23,162 nucleotides of DNA from a virus, in IMG/VR virus record IMGVR_UViG_3300022539_000074, positions 1 to 23,162 of that record; one strand, written 5' to 3'. Under the pieces are notes generated by a model, which saw nothing but the letters and a program-made list of their open reading frames with translations, searched no databases and was not told the DNA's origin. Both the position numbers and the translations under genes were made by a program. How positions within the stretch are numbered: position 1 is the first letter of the stretch; each line of letters opens with the position of its first letter. Below are positions 5,791 to 22,820 of this stretch, in pieces.

Positions 5791-5811
5791 CTTATTCAAT
5801 ATGTGAACAAG
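5791..5811. promoter_or_regulatory. 21-bp palindrome, copy 1
   Basis: CTTATTCA-ATATG-TGAACAAG lies between the adaptor-like gene and the tail fibre gene, just upstream of the fibre's ribosome site. The 8-5-8 layout and the intact right half-site match three other intergenic copies in this window. One position in the left arm differs from the consensus. No T-run follows on either strand, so it is not a standard terminator. A dimeric protein-binding site is the simplest reading. Confidence 0.55.
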
Positions 5812-5813
5812 TC

Positions 5814-6539
5814 TTAATACCGCAATCTAATATCACCGTAATCACCTGCGTGTAATGAGATACCGTCCCTTCTCTCAACAGGCGGCCCTTCCACCACCAT
5901 CTCCTCAGCTATATCAGCACTATCACTATCAATAGCATGCTTAAGACTACCACCGATGATACCATCATCCCACTTCCATCCCAATGCTAAATGTTTCCAA
6001 TAAGAGAATTGCTCTGAAGCCTCGATGGATAGAAATATGAAGGCGGTTATATACTGAATGATGAATGTATCTAGTATACCTATAGGACAAGCGTTATCAT
6101 CTCCATCAAATATCTGTTCAGTTGATACAACCAATCGAAGTGTCAGCCCGCTCTCAGCATGCTTATCAAGCATTATATATGCTCCCCGTCTCATACCAAC
6201 AGCAGGCCAGCCTTTCATATTATCTTCAGCATTGATGACATTCCTAGCCCACCATACTTCATCTTTCAGAGGAAGTGGCGTATTTAGACTGCCGTCAGCT
6301 TGGACTATGCGGGCCGTTACTATATGTACCAGATTACTGATAGTCGATATACTAACAGATGTAGCGTTTTCTGTAATATCAATATCGCTATTCAGTGTCC
6401 GAGAATCTCTGAATGGATGTGCTTGCACTGCTACCTTAAGAGCTTCATCCGCGAGTCTCTCGATAAGTGTAACCTTCTCAGCACCCCTACCAGTATTGTC
6501 ATTAACGGCAACTTTTATTTGTGCTCTCGTATTTGCCAT
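5814..6539 (-). CDS. Virion structural protein, possible head-tail adaptor
   Basis: The start is ATG 6539 behind GGGAGG; longer versions reading from 6590 run through the previous gene and make no sense. The 241 aa product begins MANTRAQIKVAVNDNTGRGAE and is mostly alpha-helical in its C-terminal half (DTFIIQYITAFIFLSIEASEQFSYWKHLALGWKW). That 'IQYxTAxIFxSxExxExxxYW...ALG' phrase resembles phage adaptor or tail-tubular proteins that join portal to tail. Length suits that role. It precedes the tail fibre and nozzle-like genes in the operon. The assignment rests on pattern and position. Confidence 0.5.
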   Translation of the reverse strand: MANTRAQIKVAVNDNTGRGAEKVTLIERLADEALKVAVQAHPFRDSRTLNSDIDITENATSVSISTISNLVHIVTARIVQADGSLNTPLPLKDEVWWARNVINAEDNMKGWPAVGMRRGAYIMLDKHAESGLTLRLVVSTEQIFDGDDNACPIGILDTFIIQYITAFIFLSIEASEQFSYWKHLALGWKWDDGIIGGSLKHAIDSDSADIAEEMVVEGPPVERRDGISLHAGDYGDIRLRY

Positions 6540-6549
6540 TGCGGCCTCC

Positions 6550-7026
6550 CTATCCAGCAGCAACAACAGGTGTAACTGTTGGAGCTGCACCTACATATGT
6601 TACTCTATACGGAAGTTCACAGTCACCGACCTCAACACTGAGTTTTACATGAATCTGCACTGATGCATTAGGAGCCATTGGGCCCAAAACAAAGCTCATA
6701 CCACTCTCGCTGGCATCTAAAGTACCATTACCGTTAGCTACGATTTGTGCGCTAGCAATCTGTGTAGAGCGATAATTTGTGCCGTCAACTTGAACAACTG
6801 CAATGCAGTCTAGAGTATCTGCTGCAGTTGCTACATTATCCCATCCAGTTGTTGCCTTGTTAAAGTCAATGTCTATCCTACAACTTAGAAGACCCGTAGA
6901 CGGTGCCGTTACAGTTAGAATGTTGGTATAGTTTGTGTAGACAGCCGCAGAGATATCAATATCTGCGTCTCCAGTAATCTCACCAACCTCAACCTGCCCT
7001 TGTAAAAAGCTATCTAATCTTGACAT
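6550..7026 (-). CDS. Virion structural protein, beta-sandwich-like (158 aa)
   Basis: A 158 aa protein from ATG 7026 (AAGGAG site). After a short acidic helix (MSRLDSFLQGQVEVGEITG) it is almost entirely alternating beta-strand and turn: ILTVTAPSTGLLSCRIDIDF, then DCIAVVQVDGTNYRSTQIA, and ASVQIHVKLSVEVG near the end. The C-terminus is proline/valine/alanine rich. There is no signal peptide or enzyme motif. It sits in a block of four small beta-rich genes between the sugar cassette and the tail genes, so it is probably a minor capsid or head-decoration protein. No family recognised. Confidence 0.55.
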   Translation of the reverse strand: MSRLDSFLQGQVEVGEITGDADIDISAAVYTNYTNILTVTAPSTGLLSCRIDIDFNKATTGWDNVATAADTLDCIAVVQVDGTNYRSTQIASAQIVANGNGTLDASESGMSFVLGPMAPNASVQIHVKLSVEVGDCELPYRVTYVGAAPTVTPVVAAG

Positions 7027-7035
7027 ATCGTCTCC

Positions 7036-7578
7036 TTATAGCCCTGTATATATCGCTTCGAGCTCATCAGTTTCTTGTGCTGAACCAGCATCACAAGTTG
7101 TTAGCTCTAGCAATAGATACTTAATCCCCAGACCGTCAAACGTAATTTTAGCAATACCTGTACCAGCCTCACCTATATCAACGATTGATACTTGACTTGG
7201 CCAATACTGTGCTGCTATAGTTAAGAAATCTGCGTAGAATGTAGCTGCAGCAGCTGCTCCTGTAATTGGATGAATAGTGGCAGCTACAGAACCGATATTA
7301 CCTGTACCGTTTGCTATCTCCTCCGCCATACCATTAGTATCTCTAAAACCGTACAATTTCCAAGTAAACACAGCCGTTTGACCGGCCGGTGTACCAAGGA
7401 AGGTAACTATAATATCATTTATACCTTCTGGTAATCTAACCGCATCACCAGTACCGGCACTTCTGTTAGCAAAGTTCTTTGTTGTAGCGCCCAGAACGGT
7501 AGTGTCGTCAGTAACAACTACCCCTCTAAGCTTTATCCAAGGAATTTGCTTGGTCATTAAAGCCCGTTTTGTGCTCAT
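7036..7578 (-). CDS. Virion structural protein (180 aa)
   Basis: The product starts MSTKRALMTKQIPWIKLRGV, is 180 aa long and has a strong AGGAG site. The centre is beta-rich (DIIVTFLGTPAGQTAVFTWKLYGF), followed by an alanine-rich stretch GAAAAATFYADFL and a closing strand IKYLLLELTTCDAGSAQE. These features resemble head-fibre or decoration proteins of environmental phages, but I do not recognise a named family. It is third in the run of small structural genes 5814-7897, all with their own ribosome sites, which suggests high late expression. Confidence 0.5.
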   Translation of the reverse strand: MSTKRALMTKQIPWIKLRGVVVTDDTTVLGATTKNFANRSAGTGDAVRLPEGINDIIVTFLGTPAGQTAVFTWKLYGFRDTNGMAEEIANGTGNIGSVAATIHPITGAAAAATFYADFLTIAAQYWPSQVSIVDIGEAGTGIAKITFDGLGIKYLLLELTTCDAGSAQETDELEAIYTGL

Positions 7579-7588
7579 TATCTATCTC

Positions 7589-7897
7589 CTAAGCATGCAT
7601 TTTGATAAACGATGCGGCCGTAGTTGGAGCCACTGAAACTGTGCAGATGTGTGCTGTATCTACATCTATACGATACGCCATATCACCCATTTTTACTGGA
7701 GCAACGGCAGAACTAGCTGCAGAAACTGCAGGGTCTGCACCAGTAATATACCAGCATCTTCGCTTCAGCCGATTCAGGCTCAAATTACTCTTCTTATCAA
7801 ACTCGGTAGTCTGAGCTGAGCCTCTAGCCAACCGCTGCATTATCTTACCCATCACTCGACTACCATTTTTAGCTAACGTCACAATCGTAGCAGCCAT
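7589..7897 (-). CDS. Small virion-associated protein (102 aa)
   Basis: The ATG at 7897 is preceded by TAGGAGG, which lies inside the last codons of the aminotransferase gene. The 102 aa product begins MAATIVTLAKNGSRVMGKIM and has a basic middle (DKKSNLSLNRLKRRCWYITG) and a beta-rich end. Its MAAT start is shared with the capsid and beta-helix proteins of this genome. The position at the head of the small structural block suggests a minor virion role. Function unknown. Confidence 0.5.
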   Translation of the reverse strand: MAATIVTLAKNGSRVMGKIMQRLARGSAQTTEFDKKSNLSLNRLKRRCWYITGADPAVSAASSAVAPVKMGDMAYRIDVDTAHICTVSVAPTTAASFIKMHA

Positions 7898-7902
7898 TTT
7901 TA

Positions 7903-9012
7903 TTACCTCCTAAAACTTTTAACTGTACTTATTATTTCATCAATTTGAGAAGATGTTAAATCAGGGAACATCGGTAGTGTTATTAACCTAGTCCAAATCG
8001 ACTCACAAACTGGTGTAGCGTAATCGCAGTTTTTATACATCTTATAATGATTGCTTGGTATATAGTGGACACCGGTTGATATATCTTTGTTCTTAAGAAA
8101 CTTATGTAGCCCATTTCTGTCGTCTACCTTAATAACATAATTATGCTGTGATGTCCTGGCGTAGCTCTTAACAGTTGGAGTCTCTATCCAATCTACATTA
8201 GCAAATGCTTCATCATACATTGCTGCTATATCACGTCTAGTATTATTCATATCATCTAACTTCTCAAGTTGCACTAACCCAATAGCTGCAGTAATGTCAT
8301 TCATATGGTACTTGAAGCCAATCTCATCTACGTCATAGTACCATGAGTACCCAGTATTTGCGTGGTCTCTCCGCCAGGTATCTTTAGATATCCCCATCCA
8401 TCTTAGCTTTCGTAGTCTATCATATACCTCTTTGCTGTTGGTAGTAACCATCCCACCATCGCCAGTTGCTAGGTTCTTAACTGCATGAAAACTGAAGCAA
8501 CCAATATCACCCAATGAGCCTATCTTTCTACCTTTATACTCCCCACCACAACCGTGAGCGGCATCCTCAATAACAGTTAAGTTGTGCTCTTTAGCTATAT
8601 TATTGATAACATCCATCTCACAAGCATGCCCGCCGTAGTGAACAGCAACGATAGCCCTAGTACTTGGCAGGATGCATGTCTCTATGCTCTCCGGGTCGAT
8701 GTTTAGAGTATCTGGATAGATATCAGCAAAAACTGGTATACCACCAGCATAGCGAATAGCGTGGTTAGTTGCTATAAACGTTAGAGATGTAGTAACTACG
8801 TGAAAACAACCTACGCCTATCACTTTCAATGCCAAGTGCAGTGCAGCCGTACAACTATTAACGCCGACTGCATACTTAACGCCGATGTATTTAGCAAATT
8901 TCTGCTCGAATTCTTCTGTCTTAGGCCCTAAGCCAACCCAACCGCTCTCAAGAACTTTAGCAACTGCTTCGGCTTCTCTCTCATCGTAACAAGGCTTAAA
9001 AACTGGTATCAC
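7903..9012 (-). CDS. DegT/DnrJ/EryC1-family PLP sugar aminotransferase
   Basis: At 369 aa this is a full-length member of the family that transfers an amino group to a keto-sugar nucleotide, making amino-sugars for surface glycans. Visible landmarks are MIPVFKPCYDEREAEAV, GWVGLGPKTEEFEQKFA, the cofactor-binding IEDAAH (Asp150) and FSFHAVKNLATGDGGM with the Schiff-base lysine at 179. All catalytic landmarks are intact. It starts with GTG at 9012, overlapping the methyltransferase stop (GTGA), eight bases after GGAGG. It is the last gene of a four-gene sugar cassette set inside the capsid operon. Virion or host-surface glycan modification is inferred. Confidence 0.93.
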   Translation of the reverse strand: MIPVFKPCYDEREAEAVAKVLESGWVGLGPKTEEFEQKFAKYIGVKYAVGVNSCTAALHLALKVIGVGCFHVVTTSLTFIATNHAIRYAGGIPVFADIYPDTLNIDPESIETCILPSTRAIVAVHYGGHACEMDVINNIAKEHNLTVIEDAAHGCGGEYKGRKIGSLGDIGCFSFHAVKNLATGDGGMVTTNSKEVYDRLRKLRWMGISKDTWRRDHANTGYSWYYDVDEIGFKYHMNDITAAIGLVQLEKLDDMNNTRRDIAAMYDEAFANVDWIETPTVKSYARTSQHNYVIKVDDRNGLHKFLKNKDISTGVHYIPSNHYKMYKNCDYATPVCESIWTRLITLPMFPDLTSSQIDEIISTVKSFRR

Positions 9013-9446
9013 TTGATAGCCTCCAAAATAGCATCAACATTACCAGTTACCTCCCATATATTCTTAATAAGCTTCCAAGGTTTAGGACTATACACAAGAT
9101 AGTAATAAGGGCATCTTGGGTCAAAGTAGTGAAATGTCACTTCATTTGGGCAAGTATAGTGCGTAGGGTCTTGAAATGCTCTAATACTACCGGCATATGG
9201 TGAACTAATTACTAACGAACCGCCCGGTTTCATTACTCGCCATGCCTCATCCATCATTTGCAGTCTATACTTCGGCTCGATGTGCTCGTAGATATTCCTC
9301 ATCATTATACATTCACAAGCATTATCATCTATCGGCCACGGGAATTTCTGAATGTTATGGACTATATCTACCCCATCACAAGCTCTAGCATCCATACCAA
9401 CAAAACCCTCATGCTTATTGATGCCACAACCTAAATCAAGATTCAT
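9009..9446 (-). CDS. SAM-dependent class I methyltransferase (145 aa)
   Basis: ATG 9446 is preferred over TTG 9461 because GCGAGG lies seven bases before it. The protein opens directly with motif I (MNLDLGCGINKHEGFVGMD) and shows the expected acidic end of strand 2, IMMRNIYEHIEP (motif IV region) and RVMKPGGSLVISSPY. It is short for the family, as in many sugar-pathway methyltransferases. It overlaps the GT-B gene upstream by 11 bases and the aminotransferase downstream by four. It may methylate a nucleotide sugar or a transferred glycan. The substrate cannot be read from the sequence. Confidence 0.85.
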   Translation of the reverse strand: MNLDLGCGINKHEGFVGMDARACDGVDIVHNIQKFPWPIDDNACECIMMRNIYEHIEPKYRLQMMDEAWRVMKPGGSLVISSPYAGSIRAFQDPTHYTCPNEVTFHYFDPRCPYYYLVYSPKPWKLIKNIWEVTGNVDAILEAIK

Positions 9447-10284
9447 CGCGTAACCTCGCAAACATTGGAGCTATATGTTCTATATGATACTGCTCAGCTT
9501 GCTGAAGTACCAGCATCGACATCTTATGATAAAACCATCCGTCATTCTTGAGCTTCAAACATTGAGTAGGTATATTCTCTGGCGAATCGACTTGCAAGAA
9601 GCAACCATTAAACTCATCAACATAGGATGGCTCAGGATATGCCACTGTAGGAATACCAAACGAGCCGGCGTTAATCAACTTCAATGGGTCTCTGAGCTCT
9701 GGGGCGGGATTCACCTTCTCATCCATCTTCCTAAAGCATATCTGTATATCAATGCTTTTGTAGAAGCTACAGACATCTTCCCGATTCTTTGCGTCAGTCT
9801 TAACAACAAAGTTAATACCTACACCGCCAAGTGCACTATGTAGCGTATCTACACCAAGATGTAGGTTCTCTGGATACCCAATAAACCCCGCGGTCTTAAC
9901 ATCACTAGTCACTTTGACAAATCGCTCAAAGTTGCAGTGGTGCCCAGGTATCAATAGCACGTTATCTCTTCCAAGCCGTTCATTTAGGTACCGCTGCCCA
10001 ACTCGGGATGCCGCAATCGGGCACACTTCGGGATGCTCTTCCAAGTAAGGAATCGACCCATAGCTATCATCTACATCTACATATACTTGTCTAACATAGT
10101 CAATAATATGCTGTGGTGGGCCGCCTTTGATAAATACCAACACATCATCAGGATATACTATATTTGCGTCGATTATACCGCCTACAGCAGCAGCCATCTG
10201 CCTACCACGAATTTCTCCTGACGCCCACGAATTAGGATAGAATACTAACCTCCCCTCTATCATGTACTTATCGAGTATATTCAT
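9436..10284 (-). CDS. GT-B-fold glycosyltransferase
   Basis: ATG 10284 overlaps the preceding TGA (TGATG) and follows GGGAGGG by seven bases; a GTG one codon upstream is possible. The 282 aa protein has a Rossmann-like N-terminal half (RLVFYPNSWASGEIRGRQMA) and a C-terminal half with SIDIQICFR and PAPELRDPLKLINAGSFGIP, then TVAYPEPSYVDEF. That is the nucleotide-sugar-binding region of GT4-type enzymes, though the family's usual second glutamate is replaced by other acidic residues. It is shorter than typical GT4 enzymes (about 350-400 aa). It belongs to the 7903-11030 cassette. Confidence 0.7.
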   Translation of the reverse strand: MNILDKYMIEGRLVFYPNSWASGEIRGRQMAAAVGGIIDANIVYPDDVLVFIKGGPPQHIIDYVRQVYVDVDDSYGSIPYLEEHPEVCPIAASRVGQRYLNERLGRDNVLLIPGHHCNFERFVKVTSDVKTAGFIGYPENLHLGVDTLHSALGGVGINFVVKTDAKNREDVCSFYKSIDIQICFRKMDEKVNPAPELRDPLKLINAGSFGIPTVAYPEPSYVDEFNGCFLQVDSPENIPTQCLKLKNDGWFYHKMSMLVLQQAEQYHIEHIAPMFARLRDES

Positions 10285-11030
10285 CACACGTCCCTCCCAG
10301 GACAGTAATACTTCCCTACTTGTCCATCCTTGAGCCTACTCAACTCTCCCTCTATCTCTCTTAACTTTCCAAAGAGCTCACCACTTTGTGGATAGACTAT
10401 TGACGGCACACCTTGATGTCCAATCAGTATTCTAGTATCAACCCATATCCGTTCACCGTTATCTCGAAACATATTGCAGATGTTAATATCACTACGGATA
10501 TTGACTGGCTCACCTTTGAACTTCTCATCGCATGTATCTCTGAAATACGGCTTTTTAAGCTTTTTAAGCTTTTTAATATCTACCAGTGTACAGCCAAAGG
10601 CACAAATTGATACCTCGTATAGCCTGCCATCCAATGGCAGGCTCATCTCATAGTACCGTCTCTCACCATCCTCATCTTTAACTTGCCAATTTACTTGTTG
10701 AAACCGCTCGCCTTTCTTACAAACGACACCAGATACCATCGCTCCTTCAGTCTCTTGCATCGTTTCAAGTAGAAACGGTAGCGTTTCAAGTGGCATAAAG
10801 TGGTCACCATCAATAAATAGCGCGTGTGAGCACTCTTTCTCAATCACACGGTCGACTATTCTATTACGAGCAGTCGCCGCCTCTAGTCCACTTTTGCCAA
10901 TAAGCACTAACTCATAATCTCTAGACCAATGAGCCATACAGTGCATGTGATTAAAGTAGATATCAAAATCTACGAAGTTAAACACATGCGTGCATATGGC
11001 TATTAGCCCAGACTTCTGCTGCTTCGCCAT
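10284..11030 (-). CDS. GT-A-fold glycosyltransferase
   Basis: The 248 aa product has the pattern of a small GT-A enzyme: first strand SGLIAICTHVFNFVDFDIYF, ATARNRIVDRVIEKECSHALF, then IDGDH with the DxD-type acids at 74 and 76, which bind metal and nucleotide-sugar. Later come GCTLVDIKKL and IWVDTRILIGHQG, as in phage and capsule enzymes. A tandem 9-base repeat gives KKLKKLKK. The start follows GAAGGGA. It lies immediately downstream of the decoration protein gene and begins the sugar cassette. Architecture resembles the N-terminal half of the fusion at 1211-2377, so the two may be distant paralogues. Confidence 0.75.
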   Translation of the reverse strand: MAKQQKSGLIAICTHVFNFVDFDIYFNHMHCMAHWSRDYELVLIGKSGLEAATARNRIVDRVIEKECSHALFIDGDHFMPLETLPFLLETMQETEGAMVSGVVCKKGERFQQVNWQVKDEDGERRYYEMSLPLDGRLYEVSICAFGCTLVDIKKLKKLKKPYFRDTCDEKFKGEPVNIRSDINICNMFRDNGERIWVDTRILIGHQGVPSIVYPQSGELFGKLREIEGELSRLKDGQVGKYYCPGRDV

Positions 11031-11054
11031 TTCAATTCCCTTCTTAGTTATACA

Positions 11055-11573
11055 CTACAGGCAGTGAAGCTCTACCACAGCGCTTATAGCTGTCTCTATC
11101 CCAGTTGTAGCAACACGCTGCATAAGAACGGCGTACCTACCAGCAGTTGCTGCAGTAATGGGCTGCCACCAGGCGTGCGTAGTTGGCAAACCGGATGAAC
11201 CTATCATCAATGCTCCAGGCGCCAACGCACCAGTAGACTGTGCTAATGATACTTTAGCCGGACCCGCAACCTGAATCCATCCATACGCACCAGTACCGGA
11301 ACCGCTCTTACCCATAGACGCACAAGGCATGCCAGCCGGCATAGTGATATTACTTGTCCCCACAGCAGTATCAGGGGCAACAACTTTCTTGTTCAGTCCA
11401 TTCTCTACTGTAGTTCCTATCTCTAAGCAGCACGCCCTAGCTTTCAACGCTGTATCTCCGGCGTTCTTAACATATCTGTAGACTTTACTGCCTTTTTGGT
11501 ATACCGACCCGATAGTCTGCTCATCATTAGTCCGCAGTTCTGTCAAGGGTACACGAATTAAACCTGTATCCAT
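11055..11573 (-). CDS. Probable head decoration protein
   Basis: This 172 aa protein is encoded directly after the major capsid gene, the usual place for a capsid cement or decoration protein. It starts MDTGLIRVPLTELRTNDEQT and is beta-rich and Ala/Gly/Thr-rich (GSVYQKGSKVYRYVKNAGDT, PAGALMIG-like turns, TAATAGRYAVLMQRV). The 'G.v....g..Y.yv.n....l' opening resembles small decoration proteins of many siphophages and podophages. ATG 11573 follows AGGAGG. No enzyme motif is seen. Its Ser/Thr content makes it a possible target of the neighbouring glycosyltransferases, which is speculation. Confidence 0.6.
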   Translation of the reverse strand: MDTGLIRVPLTELRTNDEQTIGSVYQKGSKVYRYVKNAGDTALKARACCLEIGTTVENGLNKKVVAPDTAVGTSNITMPAGMPCASMGKSGSGTGAYGWIQVAGPAKVSLAQSTGALAPGALMIGSSGLPTTHAWWQPITAATAGRYAVLMQRVATTGIETAISAVVELHCL

Positions 11574-11604
11574 TTCTGGTTACCTCCTAGATACAAAAAA
11601 TCAA

Positions 11605-11625
11605 CTTGTTCATTATTTGAACGAC
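11605..11625. promoter_or_regulatory. 21-bp palindrome, copy 2
   Basis: CTTGTTCA-TTATT-TGAACGAC lies in the only sizeable gap between the capsid gene and the decoration gene. The left arm is perfect and the right arm keeps TGAAC. The 8-5-8 geometry is identical to the other copies. It has no T-run. Because the mismatches are not compensated, a DNA-binding site fits better than a conserved RNA stem. Confidence 0.5.
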
Positions 11626-11631
11626 TTACTG

Positions 11632-12717
11632 TTAGCTCGCATATTGCATTATCCCGTGCCTGCGAGGCTGTCCAGTAGCCAAACCTGGGCTCATGCACAC
11701 AATATAGGCAACGCGGTCAAACTGATTAGCCTGCTCTTTCCACGATGTCATCTCGTACCATATACTAGGATGGTAGTTGAAGTCAATATGGTTCATATTG
11801 AGCATGAAGATATAGTTAGACTCAACCTTGGCACTATATGTGAACGTAGCGCCCTTGAATGTGGCAGTCTCGAAGCCTAAGTCAGTAGCCTTTCTATTAA
11901 AGGCAGTTCTGACTATCTGCAGCTTATCTCTCGACTCTTCCATATATGCTTCATAAATCGACTGTTTGGTGATTATGAAGTTTGGTGACTCCATATTGGC
12001 ACCAATGGAGTTATAGAAGTGCTCCATATCTGCCACTAAGTTAAGAGCATATGGCTCGTTAGTCGGCCCAGCAATTCTATTTGCTGGTACCTCAGTAGCA
12101 TTGTCGTACATTATCCAGTTCCTCCACCACGTATTAGGTGCAGCCCGGTCGATTTTGCCATTTGACGTCCCATACAACTGCTCATCACTATTACTACCAC
12201 CACCAGTTGTCGTAAGTCCAGTACTGTTATCAACATACGGAGCTACGATGTCGAAGATACCATTTATCGACCGTGGTGCGGAGTAAAAAGCGCCCCACAG
12301 GAATAGGTAAGTCTCTAAATCCTGTACCAACGCATCTCTCGCAGCCTCCATCCTCTCAGCAATGTAGGACTTAATCATATAAGGCCCACTGTTCTTAGCA
12401 TCGTCAATCATCGAGCGGTTGATGTCTACACACCAATAGCGCCAATCAAGATGCGGAAACGTAACGAGCTTCTTGGGCTCTTGCGTTACCGTACTACCTT
12501 CCTGAAAACGCTGTGTTTTCTTCGTCCCATATCGAGCTCTACTCGTCCATCCATACGTCCCGCCCGAATAACTCTTAAAACAACCGTACTCCTTCAAGGC
12601 AAGAGTAAACACAGTCGCCTCCAGAATGTTGTCTATTGAGTCAGAACGTATCTCATACCAGGTATTCATAAAGTCATCGTCAAGAGTCCTGGTAAGACTT
12701 GTTAATGTTGCAGCCAT
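11632..12717 (-). CDS. Major capsid protein (HK97-fold-like)
   Basis: The 361 aa product starts MAATLTSLTRTLDDDFMNTWYE and continues with features usual for capsid proteins of environmental phages: an N-terminal arm, QRFQEGSTVTQEPKK (E-loop-like region), ERMEAARDALVQDLETYLF (spine helix) and a long C-terminal A-domain-like part. It lies downstream of scaffold and portal and just before the decoration gene. ATG 12717 has a strong AGGAGG site. Length suits a mature capsid protein without a fused protease. There is no obvious protease gene in the window, so maturation may not involve cleavage. The identification rests mainly on position and general pattern. Confidence 0.75.
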   Translation of the reverse strand: MAATLTSLTRTLDDDFMNTWYEIRSDSIDNILEATVFTLALKEYGCFKSYSGGTYGWTSRARYGTKKTQRFQEGSTVTQEPKKLVTFPHLDWRYWCVDINRSMIDDAKNSGPYMIKSYIAERMEAARDALVQDLETYLFLWGAFYSAPRSINGIFDIVAPYVDNSTGLTTTGGGSNSDEQLYGTSNGKIDRAAPNTWWRNWIMYDNATEVPANRIAGPTNEPYALNLVADMEHFYNSIGANMESPNFIITKQSIYEAYMEESRDKLQIVRTAFNRKATDLGFETATFKGATFTYSAKVESNYIFMLNMNHIDFNYHPSIWYEMTSWKEQANQFDRVAYIVCMSPGLATGQPRRHGIMQYAS

Positions 12718-12760
12718 TTAATGGTTACCTCCTAAAGTAAATAACAAATTACAAACATTT

Positions 12761-16846: not shown

Positions 16847-16959
16847 TACTTTTTATGCCTCGCGTGTGCTCTTTTAGCCGCCGCCACCGTTTTGTAAGTT
16901 TTTATTTTCTTCCCTTTGTTCTTTCCGTGGCAGTGATATAGGGTTCTTCCTTTACGCAT
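16846..16959 (-). CDS. Very small basic protein (37 aa)
   Basis: ATG 16959 lies ten bases after GGAGG, which is itself part of the TerL C-terminal codons. The 37 aa product MRKGRTLYHCHGKNKGKKIK plus a tail TYKTVAAAKRAHARHKK has about 15 Lys/Arg and four His residues. The YHCHGKNKGKKIKTY phrase followed by an AAAKRAH helix occurs in other phage small proteins. Strong charge suggests nucleic-acid binding. It fills the entire gap between TerL and the PGDYG-like gene. Confidence 0.7.
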   Translation of the reverse strand: MRKGRTLYHCHGKNKGKKIKTYKTVAAAKRAHARHKK

Positions 16960-16962
16960 CTA

Positions 16963-18567
16963 TCATCTACCTCCAGTATACTCATATTCTCTCAATGCCC
17001 TACCAGCGACCCTTTCACCCATATGCCCTATATCATTAGGATATCTATGCAATTCATTAGCTCTACCCATCAGTTCACCAATGATGAACTTACCACTAAA
17101 TGGACTAGCTACCTCAGCAACTGTTGCTTCTTCTTGGAAAGTATCACAAGAACGAGTCCAGTCACCTACTTGCATACTGAGAGCATCTATAATATCATCG
17201 TGTCCGCCGTATTTCTTATTAGGGTCAAATGATAGTAACTCTCGCTCTAAGTCTTTATGCCCTTCCTTAATATGCACTTTACCTGCAGCAAACCACGGTT
17301 CGAGGCCTAATATCCTAGCTACTTTGGTTGTTTTAGCATTCGGCACGCCTTCTATGTAAAACCGTTGATTAAGCTGTTCTTGCCGTCTAGTTATCCAATA
17401 CTTAAGCGTGCTCTGATATGCGGTTGACTCTACCTTAGTAACCAGTGACTTATAAGCGCGCCAATGGTCAAACAGTCTATCTATAATCACCCCAGGGTCG
17501 GCTCTTAATCTATTATAGTGAACTACCCACACTTCACCAGTTGACGGCTTAAGCCCCACAGTTATAATTACATTCCAATCCGCGTCAAGTGTCTTTGCTT
17601 GACTATCCGCAGGTGCTGGGTCTAAAGATGTAAAGTACACCAAACCCTTCGGTAAGTTATCATAATACTGAATGTAAGACCGTTTGAAAACTCGATTGAT
17701 GGATGAAGTAGGACTATTCATATAAAGCATTTCAAACATAAAAGGGCCTATAGATGTTAATAACTCATCTAATACCTCATCATTGAATCTATCCCATATC
17801 GGCTTACCACCCTGCTCTGGTGTAGATGGTATACCATCTTCATTCTCTCTCACCGAGCGACTTACAACTGAATAGCCTTTCCCGTGCTTAAATATCCACC
17901 CTATCAAGTCTTCAGGAGCCCATCTCGTACCGATTATTGTTATGACTGACTTCGTTGGATGTACCAGTAATGGATGGCACAGCTTATGAAAGCCTATTGC
18001 CTTCTCAATCTCCATTTGCGTTGGCTGCTGTATCTCACCAGTCATCGCGTCATAGTCAGGTGCTACCGTGTCATCTTGTATAACCTCGTCAAAGTGCCGA
18101 CTAACTACAGCTGTACCACAACCGGCGGGTTCAAATGTACCTTCTGGTTCTGGTAACGAACGATTCAGCGTTAAACACTCAGAAGACCACGGTCTATCTC
18201 CTCTTGGTAGTATTTCAGGGAACAATGCCCTCAATATGCCATTTGTCTCAAAGATAGCTTTTATCGCCGATATCTTCTTCTTAGCATTAGTCATTGTATT
18301 CTGGGCTACCAACAATCGAACATTTGGATTATTGATAGCTCGCCAGATGGGATATGCTATCGAGCCGATTGTAGACTTAAACCACGTTCGGGGAAACACA
18401 ATCATCCGCCTTCTGTTAACTTGATAGTTCTGTAACATACGGCATATAGGTAAATGTATGTCTGGATCTAAGTCTTTATACTTAAGAACGGCACGAGCTA
18501 AGAAGAATAGAGATTTCTTGCACTCAACCCTCAATACATTCAAAGTATCTTCCGTTTCTTTATCCAT
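16963..18567 (-). CDS. terL: Terminase large subunit
   Basis: The 534 aa product is the DNA-packaging motor. The N-terminal ATPase shows MIVFPRTWFKSTIGSIAYP (Walker A position, residues 55-73, with the variant FPRTWFKST), HFDEVIQDDTV (Walker B, about 158-168) and IIGTRW (coupling motif, 211-216). The C-terminal RNase H-like nuclease shows YFTSLDPAPADSQ (Asp316), KVEST (Glu380) and HDDIIDALS (Asp457/458 and Asp461). All nuclease acids are present. It overlaps the upstream membrane gene by 8 bases. The headful or cos mode cannot be read from it alone. Confidence 0.95.
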   Translation of the reverse strand: MDKETEDTLNVLRVECKKSLFFLARAVLKYKDLDPDIHLPICRMLQNYQVNRRRMIVFPRTWFKSTIGSIAYPIWRAINNPNVRLLVAQNTMTNAKKKISAIKAIFETNGILRALFPEILPRGDRPWSSECLTLNRSLPEPEGTFEPAGCGTAVVSRHFDEVIQDDTVAPDYDAMTGEIQQPTQMEIEKAIGFHKLCHPLLVHPTKSVITIIGTRWAPEDLIGWIFKHGKGYSVVSRSVRENEDGIPSTPEQGGKPIWDRFNDEVLDELLTSIGPFMFEMLYMNSPTSSINRVFKRSYIQYYDNLPKGLVYFTSLDPAPADSQAKTLDADWNVIITVGLKPSTGEVWVVHYNRLRADPGVIIDRLFDHWRAYKSLVTKVESTAYQSTLKYWITRRQEQLNQRFYIEGVPNAKTTKVARILGLEPWFAAGKVHIKEGHKDLERELLSFDPNKKYGGHDDIIDALSMQVGDWTRSCDTFQEEATVAEVASPFSGKFIIGELMGRANELHRYPNDIGHMGERVAGRALREYEYTGGR

Positions 18568-18766
18568 ATCTTCCTATGAACTTTTCAAGGAGCTCTTTAA
18601 TATGCTTAAATTCCTGCTTTGTAAGCTTATGTAAAGCATCTATCTTGCCTTCTAAGCAATCTTGTCTGGCCTTACACGTCTTCTCGCAGACAAATGTCTT
18701 CTGTGTCCAGTAGATTATACCAACCAGTACAACTACAGATACCCCGCCGATTGCTAAATCAATCAT
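18560..18766 (-). CDS. One-span membrane protein between TerS and TerL (68 aa)
   Basis: The 68 aa product begins MIDLAIGGVSVVVLVGIIYW, one transmembrane helix (residues 4-20), followed by a Cys pair (VCEKTCKARQDC) and a charged helix LTKQEFKHIKELLEKFIG likely to form a coiled coil. It is coupled at both ends: ATGA overlap with TerS and an 8-base overlap with TerL. The N-out anchored coiled-coil layout resembles Rz-type i-spanins or small holin-like proteins, but it is much shorter than Rz (about 150 aa). Its role is unknown. Confidence 0.65.
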   Translation of the reverse strand: MIDLAIGGVSVVVLVGIIYWTQKTFVCEKTCKARQDCLEGKIDALHKLTKQEFKHIKELLEKFIGRYG

Positions 18767-19200
18767 TTCCTATCCATCTGTAATGTTTCTGTTATCAATT
18801 TAGCATCTTCCGCGTCGATAGTAACCGAAACGCTTCTCTGCTCGGTCTTCTGAACTCTGGCATGCCCACCTCTGTCAAGTATCGAATCGGCCGCTCTAAT
18901 AGCATCACCATCTTTACCATTACTAACGACTAAACCAAGTCTATCAACTGCAGCCATTGTATGACTAGCAATCGCCTCGTCTACTCTACCAGTCTGCTCA
19001 ACAATATCTTGGTCTCTCCTATCATTAAGCTTACTCCTCTGTTCGGCTAATTGATATTGAAACGTGGGACCATTTATCACCGTAGATATCCACTGCTGAG
19101 ACATACCAAGATGTTCTGCTATATCTTTAGGCGTCCATCCCCTAAGACATAACTCTATTATCTTATAATGCCTAGCTGATAATTTTTGTATAGCTGTCAT
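18763..19200 (-). CDS. terS: Terminase small subunit (putative)
   Basis: ATG 19200 (145 aa) is chosen because an alternative TTG at 19230 also lacks a ribosome site. Residues 2-45 are a helix-turn-helix (KLSARHYKIIELCLRGWTPK, then DIAEHLGMSQQWISTVINGP) of the kind terminase small subunits use to bind packaging-initiation DNA. A helical oligomerisation region (QDIVEQTGRVDEAIASHTM) and a short C-terminal strand follow. It is the first gene of the leftward operon, directly upstream of the membrane gene and TerL. A lone HTH regulator is the alternative, but the position makes TerS more likely. Confidence 0.75.
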   Translation of the reverse strand: MTAIQKLSARHYKIIELCLRGWTPKDIAEHLGMSQQWISTVINGPTFQYQLAEQRSKLNDRRDQDIVEQTGRVDEAIASHTMAAVDRLGLVVSNGKDGDAIRAADSILDRGGHARVQKTEQRSVSVTIDAEDAKLITETLQMDRK

Positions 19201-19297
19201 TTTTTTACTAACATCAATAGACGATAACAATAGAATGATGTCGTCAGAATGATAGGTAGATGGTAGGTCAAAAATAAATAAAAAACAAAAAATTTTT

Positions 19298-19327
19298 ATT
19301 ATATGACTAACTACCTAACAATGATAA
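19298..19327 (-). promoter_or_regulatory. Candidate leftward promoter
   Basis: Read on the minus strand there is a perfect TATAAT (19303-19298) with TTATCA, a 4/6 match to the -35 consensus, 18 bases upstream (19327-19322). Transcription would head into terS and the late operon about 90 bases away. The -35 match is modest and the surrounding DNA is AT-rich, so a chance match is possible. Confidence 0.35.
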
Positions 19328-19416
19328 ACGTTCATTATATAACAAACAATATAACAAACAACAATGTTAACAAATCATAGAACATTGATTTACTTATATA
19401 AGTTTGCAAGGTTAGT

Positions 19417-19453
19417 GCCACTACGCGGTGGCGAAGGCCGGTGGGGGGTTTTT
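19417..19453. other. GC-rich hairpin and G/T run, possible packaging site
   Basis: In an otherwise AT-rich region there is a GC island: GCCAC-TACGCG-GTGGC forms a 5-bp stem (19417-19432), followed by GAAGGCCGGTGGGGGG and T5. Such GC-rich isolated segments beside terS can mark cos or pac sites. It could instead be a terminator-like element, but there is no rightward gene upstream to end. No overhang can be assigned from one sequence. Confidence 0.3.
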
Positions 19454-19767
19454 ACTTGACAGATTGTTAGTTATATATCTATCTATGGCTACGTTTGTTT
19501 AGTTGATATTGTTTGGTAGATACGTAACAATTAGTACTTGATGATGGCAAGGACAATGTTAGAATAATGGATAACAAACAAATTGATTTGTTAAGCGATT
19601 GTGTAACGGTTGTAAGTGCTTGCTATATAATCACTTATGGTCGACAAAAAACGCCGTGAAATTATCCTGACATTGTTGGATTATAATATTATAAGCAATT
19701 TTAATAATACATAAGTCTTTACGCCATAACGGTTTATATCAATTTTTACAATTATTTCGTCATCGAC

Positions 19768-19795
19768 TTGACAAAACGTAATTCGCCTGTATAAT
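19768..19795 (+). promoter_or_regulatory. Consensus sigma-70 promoter, rightward
   Basis: TTGACA (19768-19773) and TATAAT (19790-19795) are both perfect, separated by 16 bases. The expected start of transcription is about 19802, giving a leader of some 50 bases to the first small gene. This is the strongest promoter visible and probably drives the early rightward genes. Confidence 0.85.
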
Positions 19796-19851
19796 GGACG
19801 TATAAGCACGAAATGATTTATTTAGGTTTTATTGTGAAAGGACACGCAATT

Positions 19852-20019
19852 ATGGACTACATTGAAATCGAGCGCACGCTTGACGTGCTCAAGGCCGCTA
19901 TCATTGCTGCAAAGGCAAGCGACAACGTTGATGGTGATTTAGCAACTGGACTGCACAAAAATGCGGTCTGGACAATACATACTGAGTTTAAGCGGCTACG
20001 TGAGCTGCTTGATAACTGA
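19852..20019 (+). CDS. Small early protein (55 aa)
   Basis: ATG 19852 follows the leader TGAAAGGA that recurs before other genes here; an upstream ATG at 19813 lacks a ribosome site. The 55 aa product MDYIEIERTLDVLKAAIIAA...IHTEFKRLRELLDN is mostly helical, with two amphipathic helices joined by a short loop (ASDNVDGDLATGLHKNA). It could be a small dimeric regulator or host-takeover protein. It is the first gene after the strong promoter. No family recognised. Confidence 0.65.
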   Translation: MDYIEIERTLDVLKAAIIAAKASDNVDGDLATGLHKNAVWTIHTEFKRLRELLDN

Positions 20020-20117
20020 ATAACATTGTTCTTTGACATAACAAATACCGTCAATGCGTTATGATGGCATTGATGACAAAATGCTCGAGTCGGTCGACTG
20101 TAGATTGGAGGTGCTAT

Positions 20118-20582
20118 ATGGCACGGAAATATGACACAGTCGAACTAGACACTATAACATATGAGAAGCACGGGACAAAAATCACAGTAGCCGGCGTGGC
20201 TACTAAAGTTGGATTTGCTCCAGTCCGCACGTTTGGCGATGACGACCCATTTATCAACTTCGTCAAGTGTGCTAATGCCGCTGAGTTGCAACTGATAATA
20301 TCAGACTGGAAATATGGTGCTGCCGTACGTATTCAAGGGATGGTTCGCAGGGCCGCAACTGGTGGCGGTTACACCGATGCAGACCATAATAAGATATTCA
20401 ATGAGATGTCATCGGCAGACCCGGAATGGTTAATGCAGTATGCTGGAAATGGTGCCGCTCTAGACGCAGCGTGTAGAGCAGAATGGGACAGACGTAAAGC
20501 GGAGAATCCGGTTGAGGCAGACGAGGAACGGGTGTGGGAAGAATATGCAACAACTAATGCTGCAGAAATCGAGATTAACTAA
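20118..20582 (+). CDS. Hypothetical early protein (154 aa)
   Basis: The start at ATG 20118 follows TTGGAGGTG; a longer frame from 20061 begins without a ribosome site. The 154 aa product begins MARKYDTVELDTITYEKHGT, has a beta-rich first half (KITVAGVATKVGFAPVRTF, then AAVRIQGMVRRAATGGGYT) and an acidic helical second half ending in EEYATTNAAEIEIN. It is cytoplasmic by composition. Nothing in it matches an enzyme motif known to me. A single-strand-binding or inhibitor role could fit the acidic tail but is speculation. Confidence 0.6.
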   Translation: MARKYDTVELDTITYEKHGTKITVAGVATKVGFAPVRTFGDDDPFINFVKCANAAELQLIISDWKYGAAVRIQGMVRRAATGGGYTDADHNKIFNEMSSADPEWLMQYAGNGAALDAACRAEWDRRKAENPVEADEERVWEEYATTNAAEIEIN

Positions 20583-20587
20583 TCCTA

Positions 20588-20608
20588 CTTGTTCATTATG
20601 TGAACAAC
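20588..20608. promoter_or_regulatory. 21-bp palindrome, copy 3
   Basis: CTTGTTCA-TTATG-TGAACAAC follows the stop of the 154 aa gene by five bases and precedes the 58 aa gene by about 70. Only the outermost base pair breaks the symmetry. The geometry is identical to copies 1, 2 and 4. The spacer TTAT is also found in copy 2. Confidence 0.6.
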
Positions 20609-20676
20609 ACAAATATCAACAACTAACACAGTCGCCCGACTCAAGCGTTTTGTTAACTAATTGAAAGGATATTGTT

Positions 20677-20853
20677 ATGGCGAAGTACCAAGTAGGTATG
20701 AGGCTATCTTACAGAGCCGATGTGTCTGACTATATAACAATAGATGCTGAGGACTGTGAAGATGCCAAGGCAAAAATGTATGAATACTTAGAAAAACGTA
20801 TGCCCCACGCTGCAAGGGACGTAAAAGTAGACTATGCTACGGTCAATCAATAA
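20677..20853 (+). CDS. DpnD/PcfM-like small protein A (58 aa)
   Basis: ATG 20677 follows the leader TGAAAGGATATTGTT, identical to that before the zinc-knuckle gene at 21913. The 58 aa product MAKYQVGMRLSYRADVSDYI, then TIDAEDCEDAKAKMYEYLEK, has a strand-strand-helix pattern like two other small genes downstream and like DpnD/PcfM-type proteins (KY-V..., then an acid-A-E-A helix). It ends in DVKVDYATVNQ. The function of this class is unknown. The stop lies 3 bases before the left arm of the large inverted repeat. Confidence 0.6.
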   Translation: MAKYQVGMRLSYRADVSDYITIDAEDCEDAKAKMYEYLEKRMPHAARDVKVDYATVNQ

Positions 20854-20856
20854 CAA

Positions 20857-21061
20857 CTTGTTCATATTTATGATGTTCATCGTATCAATATCCCAGATTC
20901 AGCGATAGGCCTTTCAAAAATCGCTGTTTTTACGTCAAAAATGAGGTCTGTGTTATTGTATTATTATAATTATTTATATATATATTATTTTTTTTAATAC
21001 TAATGAACCGTCCTTATGATATTCACGTATTGATATGATGAACATCACGTTTGTGAACAAG
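20857..21061. repeat. 34-bp inverted repeat around AT-rich core, origin-like
   Basis: Left arm 20857-20890 and right arm 21028-21061 are 34 bases each and match in 28 positions when one is reversed. Each holds TTGTTCA and GATGTTCATC half-sites plus TATCAATA. The 137-base core contains an intrinsic-terminator-like hairpin and a very AT-rich stretch (about 20953-21000) with no G beyond one or two positions. Replication origins and partition sites often have this arrangement, and so do some regulatory regions. There is no replication gene nearby to support it directly. Confidence 0.45.
20900..20931 (+). terminator. Rho-independent terminator
   Basis: CAGCGAT (20900-20906) pairs perfectly with ATCGCTG (20920-20926), a 7-bp stem closing a 13-base loop, followed at once by TTTTT. 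It lies about 50 bases after the stop of the 58 aa gene and should end rightward transcription from the promoter at 19768. The loop is somewhat long. Confidence 0.55.
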
Positions 21062-21072
21062 ATGTTGTTGTC

Positions 21073-21225
21073 ATGATAGATAATAATTACCACTTTCGAT
21101 TACTATTATTGTTGCTACTGCTGATATTGTTATCAGTGTTAGCATCCGTTTTTATTGCCATTGTCGATTCAATTACTATCGCTGATATTTTTGTTAATAT
21201 TTTTATGACGCTGTTTCGGTTTTGA
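21073..21225 (+). CDS. Possible small hydrophobic membrane peptide (50 aa)
   Basis: An open frame of 50 codons starts at ATG 21073 and gives MIDNNYHFR, then eight leucines and ILLSVLASVFIAIV, a strong transmembrane helix, and a hydrophobic tail. There is no good ribosome site. The DNA is built of loose T-rich three-base repeats, which would give a hydrophobic product by chance. It is listed because it fills a 200-base gap and small toxic or holin-like peptides look like this. Confidence 0.25.
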   Translation: MIDNNYHFRLLLLLLLLILLSVLASVFIAIVDSITIADIFVNIFMTLFRF

Positions 21226-21268
21226 TTACTATTATCGCAATTATATCTTATATTGAAAGGACACTGTT

Positions 21269-21427
21269 ATGCGCTATATGGTGATATACACGCTACAGGC
21301 GTCATACGAAGTTGAGGCACCAAACGAAGAAATAGCCCGTAGCAAGGCGGATGATATGTACCACGATGAAGAATGGGCAGGTACGATTACCGACCCAGTG
21401 GTGGCGGTAAAAGAGTTGGGTGAATAA
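21269..21427 (+). CDS. DpnD/PcfM-like small protein B (52 aa)
   Basis: The gene starts at ATG 21269 after TTGAAAGGACACTGTT. The product MRYMVIYTLQASYEVEAPNE, then EIARSKADDMYHDEEWAGTI, shares the KY/RY-x-V strand, Y-x-V-E-A strand and acid-rich A-helix with the genes at 20677 and 21678. With 52 residues it is the shortest of the three. DpnD/PcfM-like proteins have this beta-beta-alpha-beta layout, but no function is established. It is probably a duplicated early gene. Confidence 0.6.
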   Translation: MRYMVIYTLQASYEVEAPNEEIARSKADDMYHDEEWAGTITDPVVAVKELGE

Positions 21428-21439
21428 CAACCTGCCAGT

Positions 21440-21513
21440 AAAATGGGCGGTCTGTTGGCTTGCGATTCCAACCTGCTATAGCAGTAATCAATAAGGTTGA
21501 GACCGCCCATTTT
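21440..21513 (+). ncRNA. Structured intergenic element with alternative stems
   Basis: AAAATGGGCGGTCT (21440-21453) and AGACCGCCCATTTT (21500-21513) form a perfect 14-bp stem. Within the 46-base loop CCAAC (21468-21472) can pair with GTTGG (21454-21458), or the shifted CAACC (21469-21473) can pair with GGTTG (21495-21499), but not both. CTGC-TATA-GCAG (21473-21484) is a further hairpin. The choice between two inner stems is switch-like. It lies between two small genes. A terminator with a large loop or a small inserted hairpin element is the alternative. Confidence 0.45.
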
Positions 21514-21541
21514 GTTAGTAAAATGAAAGGAAGATGCTGCA

Positions 21542-21616
21542 ATGGAATTTGTCAAGATTTGTGGGTATGAGATAAAAGAAGATAATAGACAACCCGACGG
21601 AACGTCCTTGACATAG
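21542..21616 (+). CDS. Possible 24 aa peptide
   Basis: A 25-codon frame from ATG 21542 follows ATGAAAGGAAG, a version of the shared leader. The peptide MEFVKICGYEIKEDNRQPDG ends TSLT. It may be a micropeptide or a truncated relic, since the reading frame ends early in a region otherwise laid out like its neighbours. It lies just after the structured element. Supported only by the leader and spacing. Confidence 0.35.
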   Translation: MEFVKICGYEIKEDNRQPDGTSLT

Positions 21617-21677
21617 CGGGTGAACAAGTTACTGTTGTTGTCATTGGTATATTTACAACTACTGAAAGGATAATACT

Positions 21678-21872
21678 ATGGAAAAGTACAAAGTTGTGTT
21701 CATTACGGCCTTCACATATGGAGTAGAAGCGGAAAGTAAGGATGATGCAGTAGACGCTGCTAGAAAAGAGTACACAGAAGAACTACAAAATCCAGACTCG
21801 ACTGTAGCACTATACGATGCAGTTGCGAATGTAGCAAAGGCCACTTTGAGTGATGGCTGGCTATTCGATTAG
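21678..21872 (+). CDS. DpnD/PcfM-like small protein C (64 aa)
   Basis: ATG 21678 follows CTGAAAGGATAATACT. The 64 aa product MEKYKVVFITAFTYGVEAES, then KDDAVDAARKEYTEELQNPD, is the clearest member of the three-gene family: KY-x-V strand, Y-x-V-E-A strand, and helix DDAVDAARKEY. A second, less conserved segment (STVALYDAVANVAKATLSDG) follows. The match to the DpnD/PcfM pattern (yxVxxxxxxxxxVEAxSxxEA) is good by eye. Proteins of this class occur on phages and mobile elements, with unknown role. Confidence 0.65.
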   Translation: MEKYKVVFITAFTYGVEAESKDDAVDAARKEYTEELQNPDSTVALYDAVANVAKATLSDGWLFD

Positions 21873-21912
21873 TAGTCCCAACATAACATGTGATGAGTGA
21901 AAGGATATTGTT

Positions 21913-22083
21913 ATGTTTATATGTAGTCAATGTAATAAAAGCAGTAGGCCTAATGAGAAGGCTACAAAACTGTCTATAAAGACTAGGCAGAAAACATATC
22001 GAGATGGTACCGTGGGCAGTGAGATTGTTAAGGAAGTAGATATCTATCAAGGCTGTGTAAGTAAGAATAAGAAAGGTGGATGA
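21913..22083 (+). CDS. Small zinc-knuckle-like protein (56 aa)
   Basis: ATG 21913 follows TGAAAGGATATTGTT. The 56 aa product MFICSQCNKSSRPNEKATKL begins with a CxxC pair (Cys4, Cys7), continues with a basic region TRQKTYRDGTVGSEIVKEVD, and has only a third cysteine (YQGCVSKNKK). Full zinc ribbons need four ligands, so either histidine-free binding is incomplete or dimerisation supplies the rest. Similar short phage proteins normally end in a second CxxC, so the fourth ligand may have been lost. Confidence 0.6.
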   Translation: MFICSQCNKSSRPNEKATKLSIKTRQKTYRDGTVGSEIVKEVDIYQGCVSKNKKGG

Positions 22084-22087
22084 CATT

Positions 22088-22297
22088 ATGTTGTACTGTA
22101 TAAATAAAGAACCGAGTGGTGGCCTCGACATCTGTGTAGATGGTCAAGCGGTTCTTAATATAAGTGAAGTGTCTGATAATGAGACCATCAATCTATTCCT
22201 CACGCCGATGGGTGTAGATGCAGTGATAATTGAGACAATGGAATGTACTAGGCAGAAGATGCCGTGGTCTCACGAATTGTTAGTGAGAAGGAGATAG
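22088..22297 (+). CDS. Hypothetical protein (69 aa)
   Basis: ATG 22088 follows AAAGGTGG by eight bases; GTG at 22076 is in frame but would sit on the ribosome site. The 69 aa product MLYCINKEPSGGLDICVDGQ is followed by beta-rich segments AVLNISEVSDNETINLFLTP and AVIIETMECTRQKMPWSHE. There are no membrane helices. It ends two bases before the lipoprotein start, so the two are cotranscribed. I do not recognise it. Confidence 0.6.
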   Translation: MLYCINKEPSGGLDICVDGQAVLNISEVSDNETINLFLTPMGVDAVIIETMECTRQKMPWSHELLVRRR

Positions 22298-22299
22298 AT

Positions 22300-22539
22300 A
22301 TGAAGAAAAAACTAATTGTATCATTGCTACTGGTACTATCTGGCTGTTCTTGGTTTAGTGATAATAGGATAGTTGTCAAGCCGACTAGACGGATTGATAC
22401 TAGCTCTTACGAGTTTCGCCGAGTGTTAGCTATATTTATCAAGTATAGATTTGAGACGCAGAAGTCTATTGAATGGATAATGGCTGACTTAGCGTTAGCA
22501 GAGTATGAACTATCATTAAAGAAGGAGAAAGAGAAATGA
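22300..22539 (+). CDS. Small lipoprotein (79 aa)
   Basis: ATG 22300 follows AAGGAG. The first residues MKKKLIVSLLLVLSGCSWFS form a lipoprotein signal peptide with lipobox LSGC (lipidated Cys16). The mature part (about 63 aa) is basic and helical, with KSIEWIMADLALAEYELSLKK ending in KEKEK. Its TGA overlaps the ATG of a 26 aa membrane peptide (ATGA), a pairing seen in phage lysis and exclusion modules. Outer-membrane spanin subunits are small lipoproteins too, but usually proline-rich, which this is not. Confidence 0.7.
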   Translation: MKKKLIVSLLLVLSGCSWFSDNRIVVKPTRRIDTSSYEFRRVLAIFIKYRFETQKSIEWIMADLALAEYELSLKKEKEK

Positions 22540-22616
22540 AACAGATAGCAAAATGGATAGCTATAACCATAGCATTCTTTCTAGTGCTATGGTTAATAGT
22601 ACTAATGGGGCAGTGA
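22536..22616 (+). CDS. Single-span membrane peptide (26 aa)
   Basis: MKQIAKWIAITIAFFLVLWL plus IVLMGQ is a basic N-terminus followed by one strongly hydrophobic helix. It is translationally coupled to the lipoprotein through ATGA, with GAAGGAGAAAGAGAA ahead of it. It could be a holin-like or pinholin-like peptide, or a regulator of the lipoprotein. It is very short but has no competing frame. The tRNA gene follows after 11 bases. Confidence 0.55.
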   Translation: MKQIAKWIAITIAFFLVLWLIVLMGQ

Positions 22617-22627
22617 GAAAGATGGCT

Positions 22628-22702
22628 AGACGAGTAGCTCAATTTGGTAAAAGCACACCCCTTATAAGGGTGAGGTTGCAGGTTCGAGTCCTGCCTCGTC
22701 TA
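22628..22702 (+). tRNA. tRNA-Ile(UAU)
   Basis: The 75-base gene folds into a cloverleaf: acceptor AGACGAG/CTCGTCT, D arm GCTC/AAGC with three pairs and one C-A mismatch, anticodon stem CACCC/GGGTG with loop CTTATAA, and T arm GCAGG-TTCGAGT-CCTGC. The anticodon is TAT, which reads AUA (Ile). The discriminator base is A, as usual for Ile. CCA is not encoded. Phage genes here use ATA codons often, so the tRNA probably helps their translation. Confidence 0.88.
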
Positions 22703-22704
22703 TT

Positions 22705-22815
22705 ATGACTAAAGAAAGAATAACATTTAACATAGGTAGCGTTGTTGTAGTAATATGGTACTGGCCTACCATCGCTAGCATATTACTACATACAATGCTC
22801 TTGTTCGTTGTTTGA
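22705..22815 (+). CDS. Possible small membrane peptide (36 aa)
   Basis: A 37-codon frame from ATG 22705 directly follows the tRNA, with no ribosome site. The product MTKERITFNIGSVVVVIWYW, then PTIASILLHTMLLFVV, is hydrophobic over most of its length. The stop codon lies within palindrome copy 4. It could be a chance frame, because the region holds the 3' part of the tRNA transcript. Confidence 0.3.
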   Translation: MTKERITFNIGSVVVVIWYWPTIASILLHTMLLFVV

Positions 22816-22820
22816 ACAAG
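22800..22820. promoter_or_regulatory. 21-bp palindrome, copy 4
   Basis: CTTGTTCG-TTGTT-TGAACAAG has a perfect right arm and one inner mismatch in the left. It lies about 35 bases upstream of the 97 aa gene. As in copy 3, the sequence after the right arm continues with AACACAAA-like bases, so flanking DNA may also be shared. Confidence 0.6.

Follow-up and report, generated by a model that had tools for sequence, protein, structure and literature searches.

The window analyzed here, the entire 23,162-base virus record IMGVR_UViG_3300022539_000074, carries four dispersed copies of a palindrome, CTTGTTCA-N5-TGAACAAG. We propose that these copies are putative parS-like sites and that the protein that binds them is probably a phage-encoded orphan fusion of ParB to a DNA methyltransferase. 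In phages of this type, the sites are conserved, symmetric and evenly dispersed, and they are associated with the fusion gene.

The palindromes in the window and its relatives

We scanned the window for CTTGTTCA-N5-TGAACAAG, allowing up to three mismatches. There were four matches where 0.12 were expected, and four or more matches occurred in 0 of 100 shuffles. An earlier note, made from the sequence of the window alone, had reported four palindromes of 8-5-8 layout, all intergenic. These are present exactly where the note had placed them (Table 1), and all four lie between genes; antisense open reading frames (ORFs) overlap some of them and appear spurious. Across the window and nine relatives, again with up to three mismatches, only a spacer of 5 was enriched, with 24 matches versus 0 to 4 at each other spacer from 0 to 13. 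The core of the palindrome is 17 bp long and odd-centered, with this 5-base spacer.

Table 1. Palindromes, inverted repeat and lone half-site in the window
Feature	Position	Strand	Mismatches to the palindrome	Context
Palindrome CTTATTCA-ATATG-TGAACAAG	5791..5811		1	Between gene 5814-6590(-) and gene 4881-5777(-), directly upstream of the Shine-Dalgarno sequence of the latter
Palindrome CTTGTTCA-TTATT-TGAACGAC	11605..11625		2	Between major capsid gene 11632-12717(-) and gene 11055-11573(-)
Palindrome CTTGTTCA-TTATG-TGAACAAC	20588..20608		1	Directly past the stop of rightward gene 20061-20582(+)
Palindrome CTTGTTCG-TTGTT-TGAACAAG	22800..22820		1	Between tRNA-Ile (22627-22703) and gene 22855-23148(+)
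43-nt inverted repeat, AT-rich core (72% A+T)	20848..21070			Half-sites CTTGTTCA at 20857 and TGAACAAG at 21054 near its outer ends
Lone half-site TGAACAAG	21621..21628	-		May be chance

Relatives of the window came from a terminase search (G001, G003/G004, G002 and G005 to G007) and from a palindrome scan (G008 and G009). G001 is 99.7% identical to the window over 6.4 kb and prolongs it rightward, giving an overlapping extension of 14.6 kb, and G003/G004 stand at 68% amino acid identity. We found no close DNA relative among GenBank phages, and a capsid search of genome contigs for a host gave no match. In the search for the window phage's own fusion gene, a viral scan with its ATPase returned only G001, and an alignment scan gave no nearer relative.

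The earlier note had named loss of the motif in relatives with the same gene order as the result that would speak against it. We found the opposite: divergent relatives retain sites at matching gene junctions. The 5791 palindrome has its positional counterpart at 12588 in G004, and both lie upstream of a tail gene. The 11605 palindrome corresponds to sites at 20658 in G004, 5554 in G002 and 17546 in G009 and to a degenerate site at 6800 in G007; in the window, G004, G002 and G009, this site stands ahead of the gene next after the capsid gene. In G009 a homing-endonuclease-like gene lies between the capsid gene and the palindrome, and the palindrome is still beside the downstream gene. The 20588 palindrome has a counterpart at 28203 in G004, past the homologue of gene 20061-20582, and the 22800 palindrome has one at 7778 in G008, past a tRNA in both phages.

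A LAGLIDADG homing-endonuclease gene is also found in the window (2374-2844, overlapping the start of gene 1211-2419). Similar genes are at 17570-18004 in G009, which is the one between capsid gene and palindrome, and at 8399-8818 in G001, and the ATPase of G004 (35992-37836) has an internal, intein-like LAGLIDADG domain.

The three isolated half-sites listed in the earlier note are real. The 43-nt inverted repeat, which is immediately right of the 20588 palindrome, has the first two of them as its outer ends. A comparable inverted repeat with an AT-rich core runs from 28232 to about 28366 in G004. The repeat in the window is origin-like and a possible replication origin, associated with the palindromes rather than a proven part of their system.

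Association of the palindromes with a ParB-methyltransferase fusion

In the fusion, a nucleotide-binding domain and a helix-turn-helix, both of ParB type, are combined with a beta-class DNA methyltransferase as one polypeptide. The protein, which is encoded by relatives and not in the window, matches ParB_N at 6.1e-14. The relatives' fusions have the nucleotide-binding motifs GERRxRA and ENxxRxDL, in which G58, R60, R61, E93, N94 and R97 are invariant or nearly so among 32 sequences. A ParB/Noc-type helix-turn-helix is present, and a profile of the fusion aligns to M. xanthus ParB through position 176 of 408. The usual C-terminal dimerization domain of ParB is absent; residues from about 200 to 430 are a beta-class methyltransferase, a domain retained across the whole fusion family. 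Modeled with AlphaFold, the G004 fusion reaches a mean pLDDT of 85, and in a Foldseek search its N-terminal part matched Noc, ParB and KorB while its C-terminal part matched HpyAVI, CcrM and MboIIA. A sequence profile of the 32 members recovered both ParB-side and methyltransferase-side relatives. A second structural alignment search was filled by the methyltransferase domain and was therefore uninformative on the ParB part. Because G001 stops at a single-strand-binding gene, and the fusion gene of G004 follows shortly past that gene, the window phage's own fusion gene should lie beyond the sequenced end.

We scanned for the exact palindrome without regard to the proteins encoded. Beyond the window family, only G035 and G013 had many dispersed copies, 11 each; the 336-kb G040 had 12 matches, but there were 6 in its own control. 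Both G035 and G013 encode the fusion, and among the remaining records just G020 has a full-length copy. Neither G035 nor G013 has a recognizable homologue of the window terminase. They share with the window family a replication module that comprises a DUF3987 primase, polymerase A, a uracil-glycosylase-exonuclease fusion, an ATPase and the ParB_N protein, and in G013 the module includes a PDDEXK nuclease. In G004 the uracil-DNA glycosylase fused to a 3'-5' exonuclease domain is encoded at 40341-41441, beside polymerase A.

A de novo palindrome finder, supplied with no letters, revealed dispersed, odd-centered 6-N5-6 palindromes in fusion-bearing phages, in the same register and often with other letters. 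The half-site is TGTTCA in the window, G035 and G013, TGTTTA in G073, CGGTCA in G084 and G086, TGTCCC in Desulfofustis phage OP947158, TTTCA or ATTTCA in G052, G050 and G008+G046, CCTCA in G045 and AGTCTA in G070, and more exist. The motif letters track the ParB gene and not the virion genes. G008 and G046, the halves of a single phage with both ends in common, belong to the window-type terminase family, yet their palindromes are CTATTTCA; G035 and G013 have other virion genes, yet they have TGTTCA half-sites. G008 holds a lone, exact CTTGTTCA palindrome in a tRNA-side stretch that resembles window positions 22627-22820 (tRNA-Ile(TAT) plus palindrome; 81% over 83 nt), and this stretch is perhaps a recent transfer.

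We called palindromes significant at a log10 Poisson score below -5.4, the minimum in order-2 shuffles being -4.9. Significant palindromes were found in 28 of 53 contigs or groups, all 28 of them odd-centered, and in 1 of 14 controls without the fusion. The 53 were mostly picked by the fusion gene, and nearly all carry it; they include window-family groups whose contig has no fusion gene (the window with G001, G008, and G009) and a few near-duplicates (G074, G076 and G078), and G008 and G046 are counted separately. Since this main set was mostly chosen by the fusion, we judged co-occurrence on sets chosen otherwise. Among loci chosen by their primase, 12 of the 12 with a palindrome score below -4.9 encode the fusion and 12 of 12 are odd-centered, while none of the 22 without the fusion reaches -4.0. 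Fisher's test gave 0.005-0.02 for loci of at least 12 kb and 0.04-0.08 for loci of at least 18 kb. Three of the 12 loci overlap with the main set, being on its contigs G052, G084 and G086. An alignment of nine primases was too diverged to serve as a search query. Among families common to motif phages, the fusion family was the best discriminator, present in 22 of 23 motif phages versus 1 of 14 controls in a set partly chosen by the fusion.

Where the ParB-N methyltransferase has no clear ParB helix-turn-helix (Microcystis Mel-JY34, Vibrio ABTNL-3 and MW202489), the best-scoring motif was never odd-centered. Weak even-centered palindromes, CAATCG-N6 and GTTTAC-N6, were seen in L095 and L096 (Vibrio phage ABTNL-3 and MW202489). 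Several records hold tandem GTTCA-N5-TGAAC repeats (four, 21-23 bp apart), which we rejected as palindromes of this kind; the full-length fusion is absent from those records. In L025, the only record inspected, the four repeats at 4370-4460 are within a replication-initiator-like gene; the arrays in L025 and several other records of ~50 kb are probably origin iterons.

Residue 173 of Caulobacter ParB contacts base 1 of parS and is a specificity residue of ParB/Noc (PMC7383237). In a first set of fusions, an extra G or C in the half-site was found in 6 of 8 cases with lysine or arginine (K/R) at the equivalent position versus 0 of 18 without. In new phages, the figures were 4 of 5 with K/R versus 0 of 6 without.

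Several points weigh against binding of the palindromes by the fusion. The 28 of 53 cannot alone show co-occurrence, most of these phages having been selected by the fusion. No palindrome was detected in roughly half of the phages whose protein has a ParB helix-turn-helix, and one control, CHP58, exceeds the palindrome threshold. The core is one base pair longer than parS and odd-centered, a geometry unlike that of known ParB sites. Neither the window nor its 14.6-kb extension reaches as far as the expected gene, and within the window family the fusion is seen only in the relatives G004/G003 and G046. The K/R rule came out of the first set, ahead of the test on the second, and on the tree it comes down to 5 independent pairs, of which mostly 3-4 agree and 0 disagree, which is not significant. 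A Mantel test of motif against recognition helix, with the rest of the protein allowed for, gave a weak result (r 0.20, p 0.06); both this and the independent-pairs test were underpowered.

Placement of the sites, proposed mechanism and alternatives

Across 22 phages, an ORF stop lies within 25 bp of 91 of 218 sites, where 13.6 were expected. The spacing of the sites is more even than that of random gene ends (combined Z, -5.8) or of uniform positions (-5.5). Tandem, divergent and convergent junctions carry sites in background proportions, and at tandem junctions the site is a median of 18 nt past the stop and 25 nt before the start. About one-third of the sites were called within ORFs, some being weak sites or miscalled ORFs. 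The earlier note had placed the palindromes upstream of gene starts. They are indeed near the next start, but they are equally near the preceding stop codon, and site 2192 of G004, at a convergent junction, has no gene start beside it.

In our main reading, which we regard as probable, the fusion binds the palindromes. It would do so as a dimer, with each subunit recognizing one of the two TGTTCA half-sites by its recognition helix. Dispersal of the sites over the whole genome, at gene junctions, would follow from the need of the protein to get to the entire molecule and not to a single promoter. As a further step, a possibility short of probable, we suggest that the fusion is a sliding methyltransferase that loads at these sites. 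As is the case for ParB, Noc and KorB, nucleotide would turn the dimer into a closed clamp, which would leave the site and slide along the DNA. During sliding, the fused methyltransferase would modify the flanking phage DNA. Loading at evenly spaced palindromes would allow methylation throughout the genome, and loading sites and recognition helix would co-evolve.

Sites at gene junctions inside transcription units could also be operators or stoperators, where a phage transcription regulator would bind the palindromes and block or tune transcription between genes, and many operators are symmetric, as these sites are. However, operators are unlikely given the even genome-wide spacing, the lack of preference for divergent junctions or avoidance of convergent ones, and the fact that G035 and G013 have some of their sites within genes. 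Of all families, the ParB fusion discriminated best by far, in a set partly chosen by it, and no recognizable tyrosine integrase was found in 20 of 20 records of this phage type, in a search that did not cover serine integrases and repressors exhaustively. The earlier note had predicted a dimeric protein that acts at dispersed sites and is not encoded in the window, and had likened the sites to stoperators. The first part is supported, but the likeness to stoperators fails on symmetry, spacing, junction types and the lack of a recognizable tyrosine integrase. KorB represses, and a ParB-type protein could likewise repress as a side effect.

If instead the ParB-like protein gathered the phage genome for segregation, compaction or packaging, the methyltransferase would be secondary. 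The ParB family, the parS-like sites and their even spacing would fit such a role, and phage N15 is known for dispersed centromere sites. We regard it as distinctly unlikely, as the methyltransferase domain is retained family-wide and ParA (AAA_31, PF13614) was found in 0 of 20 phage records, some of them fragments, versus 14 of 14 control genomes. With ParA not found, we rejected a canonical ParABS system.

It is improbable that another conserved protein, such as an initiator, primase or small terminase, binds the sites. Polymerase, primase, PDDEXK nuclease and AAA ATPase are in all or nearly all motif phages, and one window site is near the origin-like inverted repeat, but the same families are also in 7-14 of 14 controls without the fusion. 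Small terminase is in only 18 of 23 motif phages, and we rejected it as the binder: phages whose terminases are related can differ in motif, and one motif can occur alongside unrelated terminases.

That the transcribed inverted repeat is an RNA hairpin (a processing site, weak terminator or translation control) is hardly credible: the 8-bp stem and 5-nt loop do stand beside Shine-Dalgarno sequences in the window, but, as the earlier note had said, mismatches are not compensated, mirrored core deviations in all motif phages numbering 15 versus 35.5 expected for independent halves, and moreover the two halves have C or G at the outermost position independently of each other and the half-site consensus extends past the stem.

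Apart from the palindromes, small proteins resembling sigma-70 region 4 are encoded in the rightward arm at 9042-9536 in L068 and 32114-32551 in G004, each a possible phage transcription factor.

Comparison with known systems

The proposed system shares with ParB-parS, Noc-NBS and KorB-OB the N-terminal nucleotide-binding motifs, the ParB helix-turn-helix and palindromes with TGTT- or TATTTC-like half-sites. Noc and KorB have several sites scattered over the replicon, as in these phages. It differs in that a methyltransferase replaces the C-terminal dimerization domain, no ParA was found, and the genome is that of a phage of a type in which no tyrosine integrase was found. In addition, parS is a 16-bp even palindrome, TGTTTCACGTGAAACA, whereas the core here is an odd-centered 6-N5-6. 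Phage N15 has ParB-family palindromes in several places of its genome, but it is a plasmid prophage with a ParA/SopA partner, and ParA was not found here.

EcoP15I-type Mod has the same beta-class methyltransferase fold, and the title of the matched PDB entry ties EcoP15I to ATP-triggered diffusion. That diffusion takes place in a restriction complex, whereas a ParB clamp is proposed here. Mycobacteriophage stoperators of the L5 type are likewise many short sites across one phage genome. However, the passages of PMC9283540 on Cluster A stoperators describe asymmetric sites to which a temperate-phage immunity repressor binds as a monomer, and the palindromes here are symmetric, with two half-sites.

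Fusions of a ParB-CTPase fold to a methyltransferase are described in passages of PMC12704722 as common in phages, surveyed and of unknown function, and other ParB-fold fusions as binding CTP, ATP or GTP. Judged by these passages, the fusion in our phages is of the same kind, a class already known. No cognate DNA site for such fusions was found in the literature searched, including the passages of PMC12704722. What we propose as new is the cognate site, its genome-wide spacing and the change of its letters between phages. The dispersed palindromes with phage-specific letters would be the missing DNA partner of these fusions, and they offer protein-site pairs for testing binding, sliding and methylation. 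The series of phages also provides naturally altered recognition helices for the question of ParB/Noc specificity (PMC7383237).

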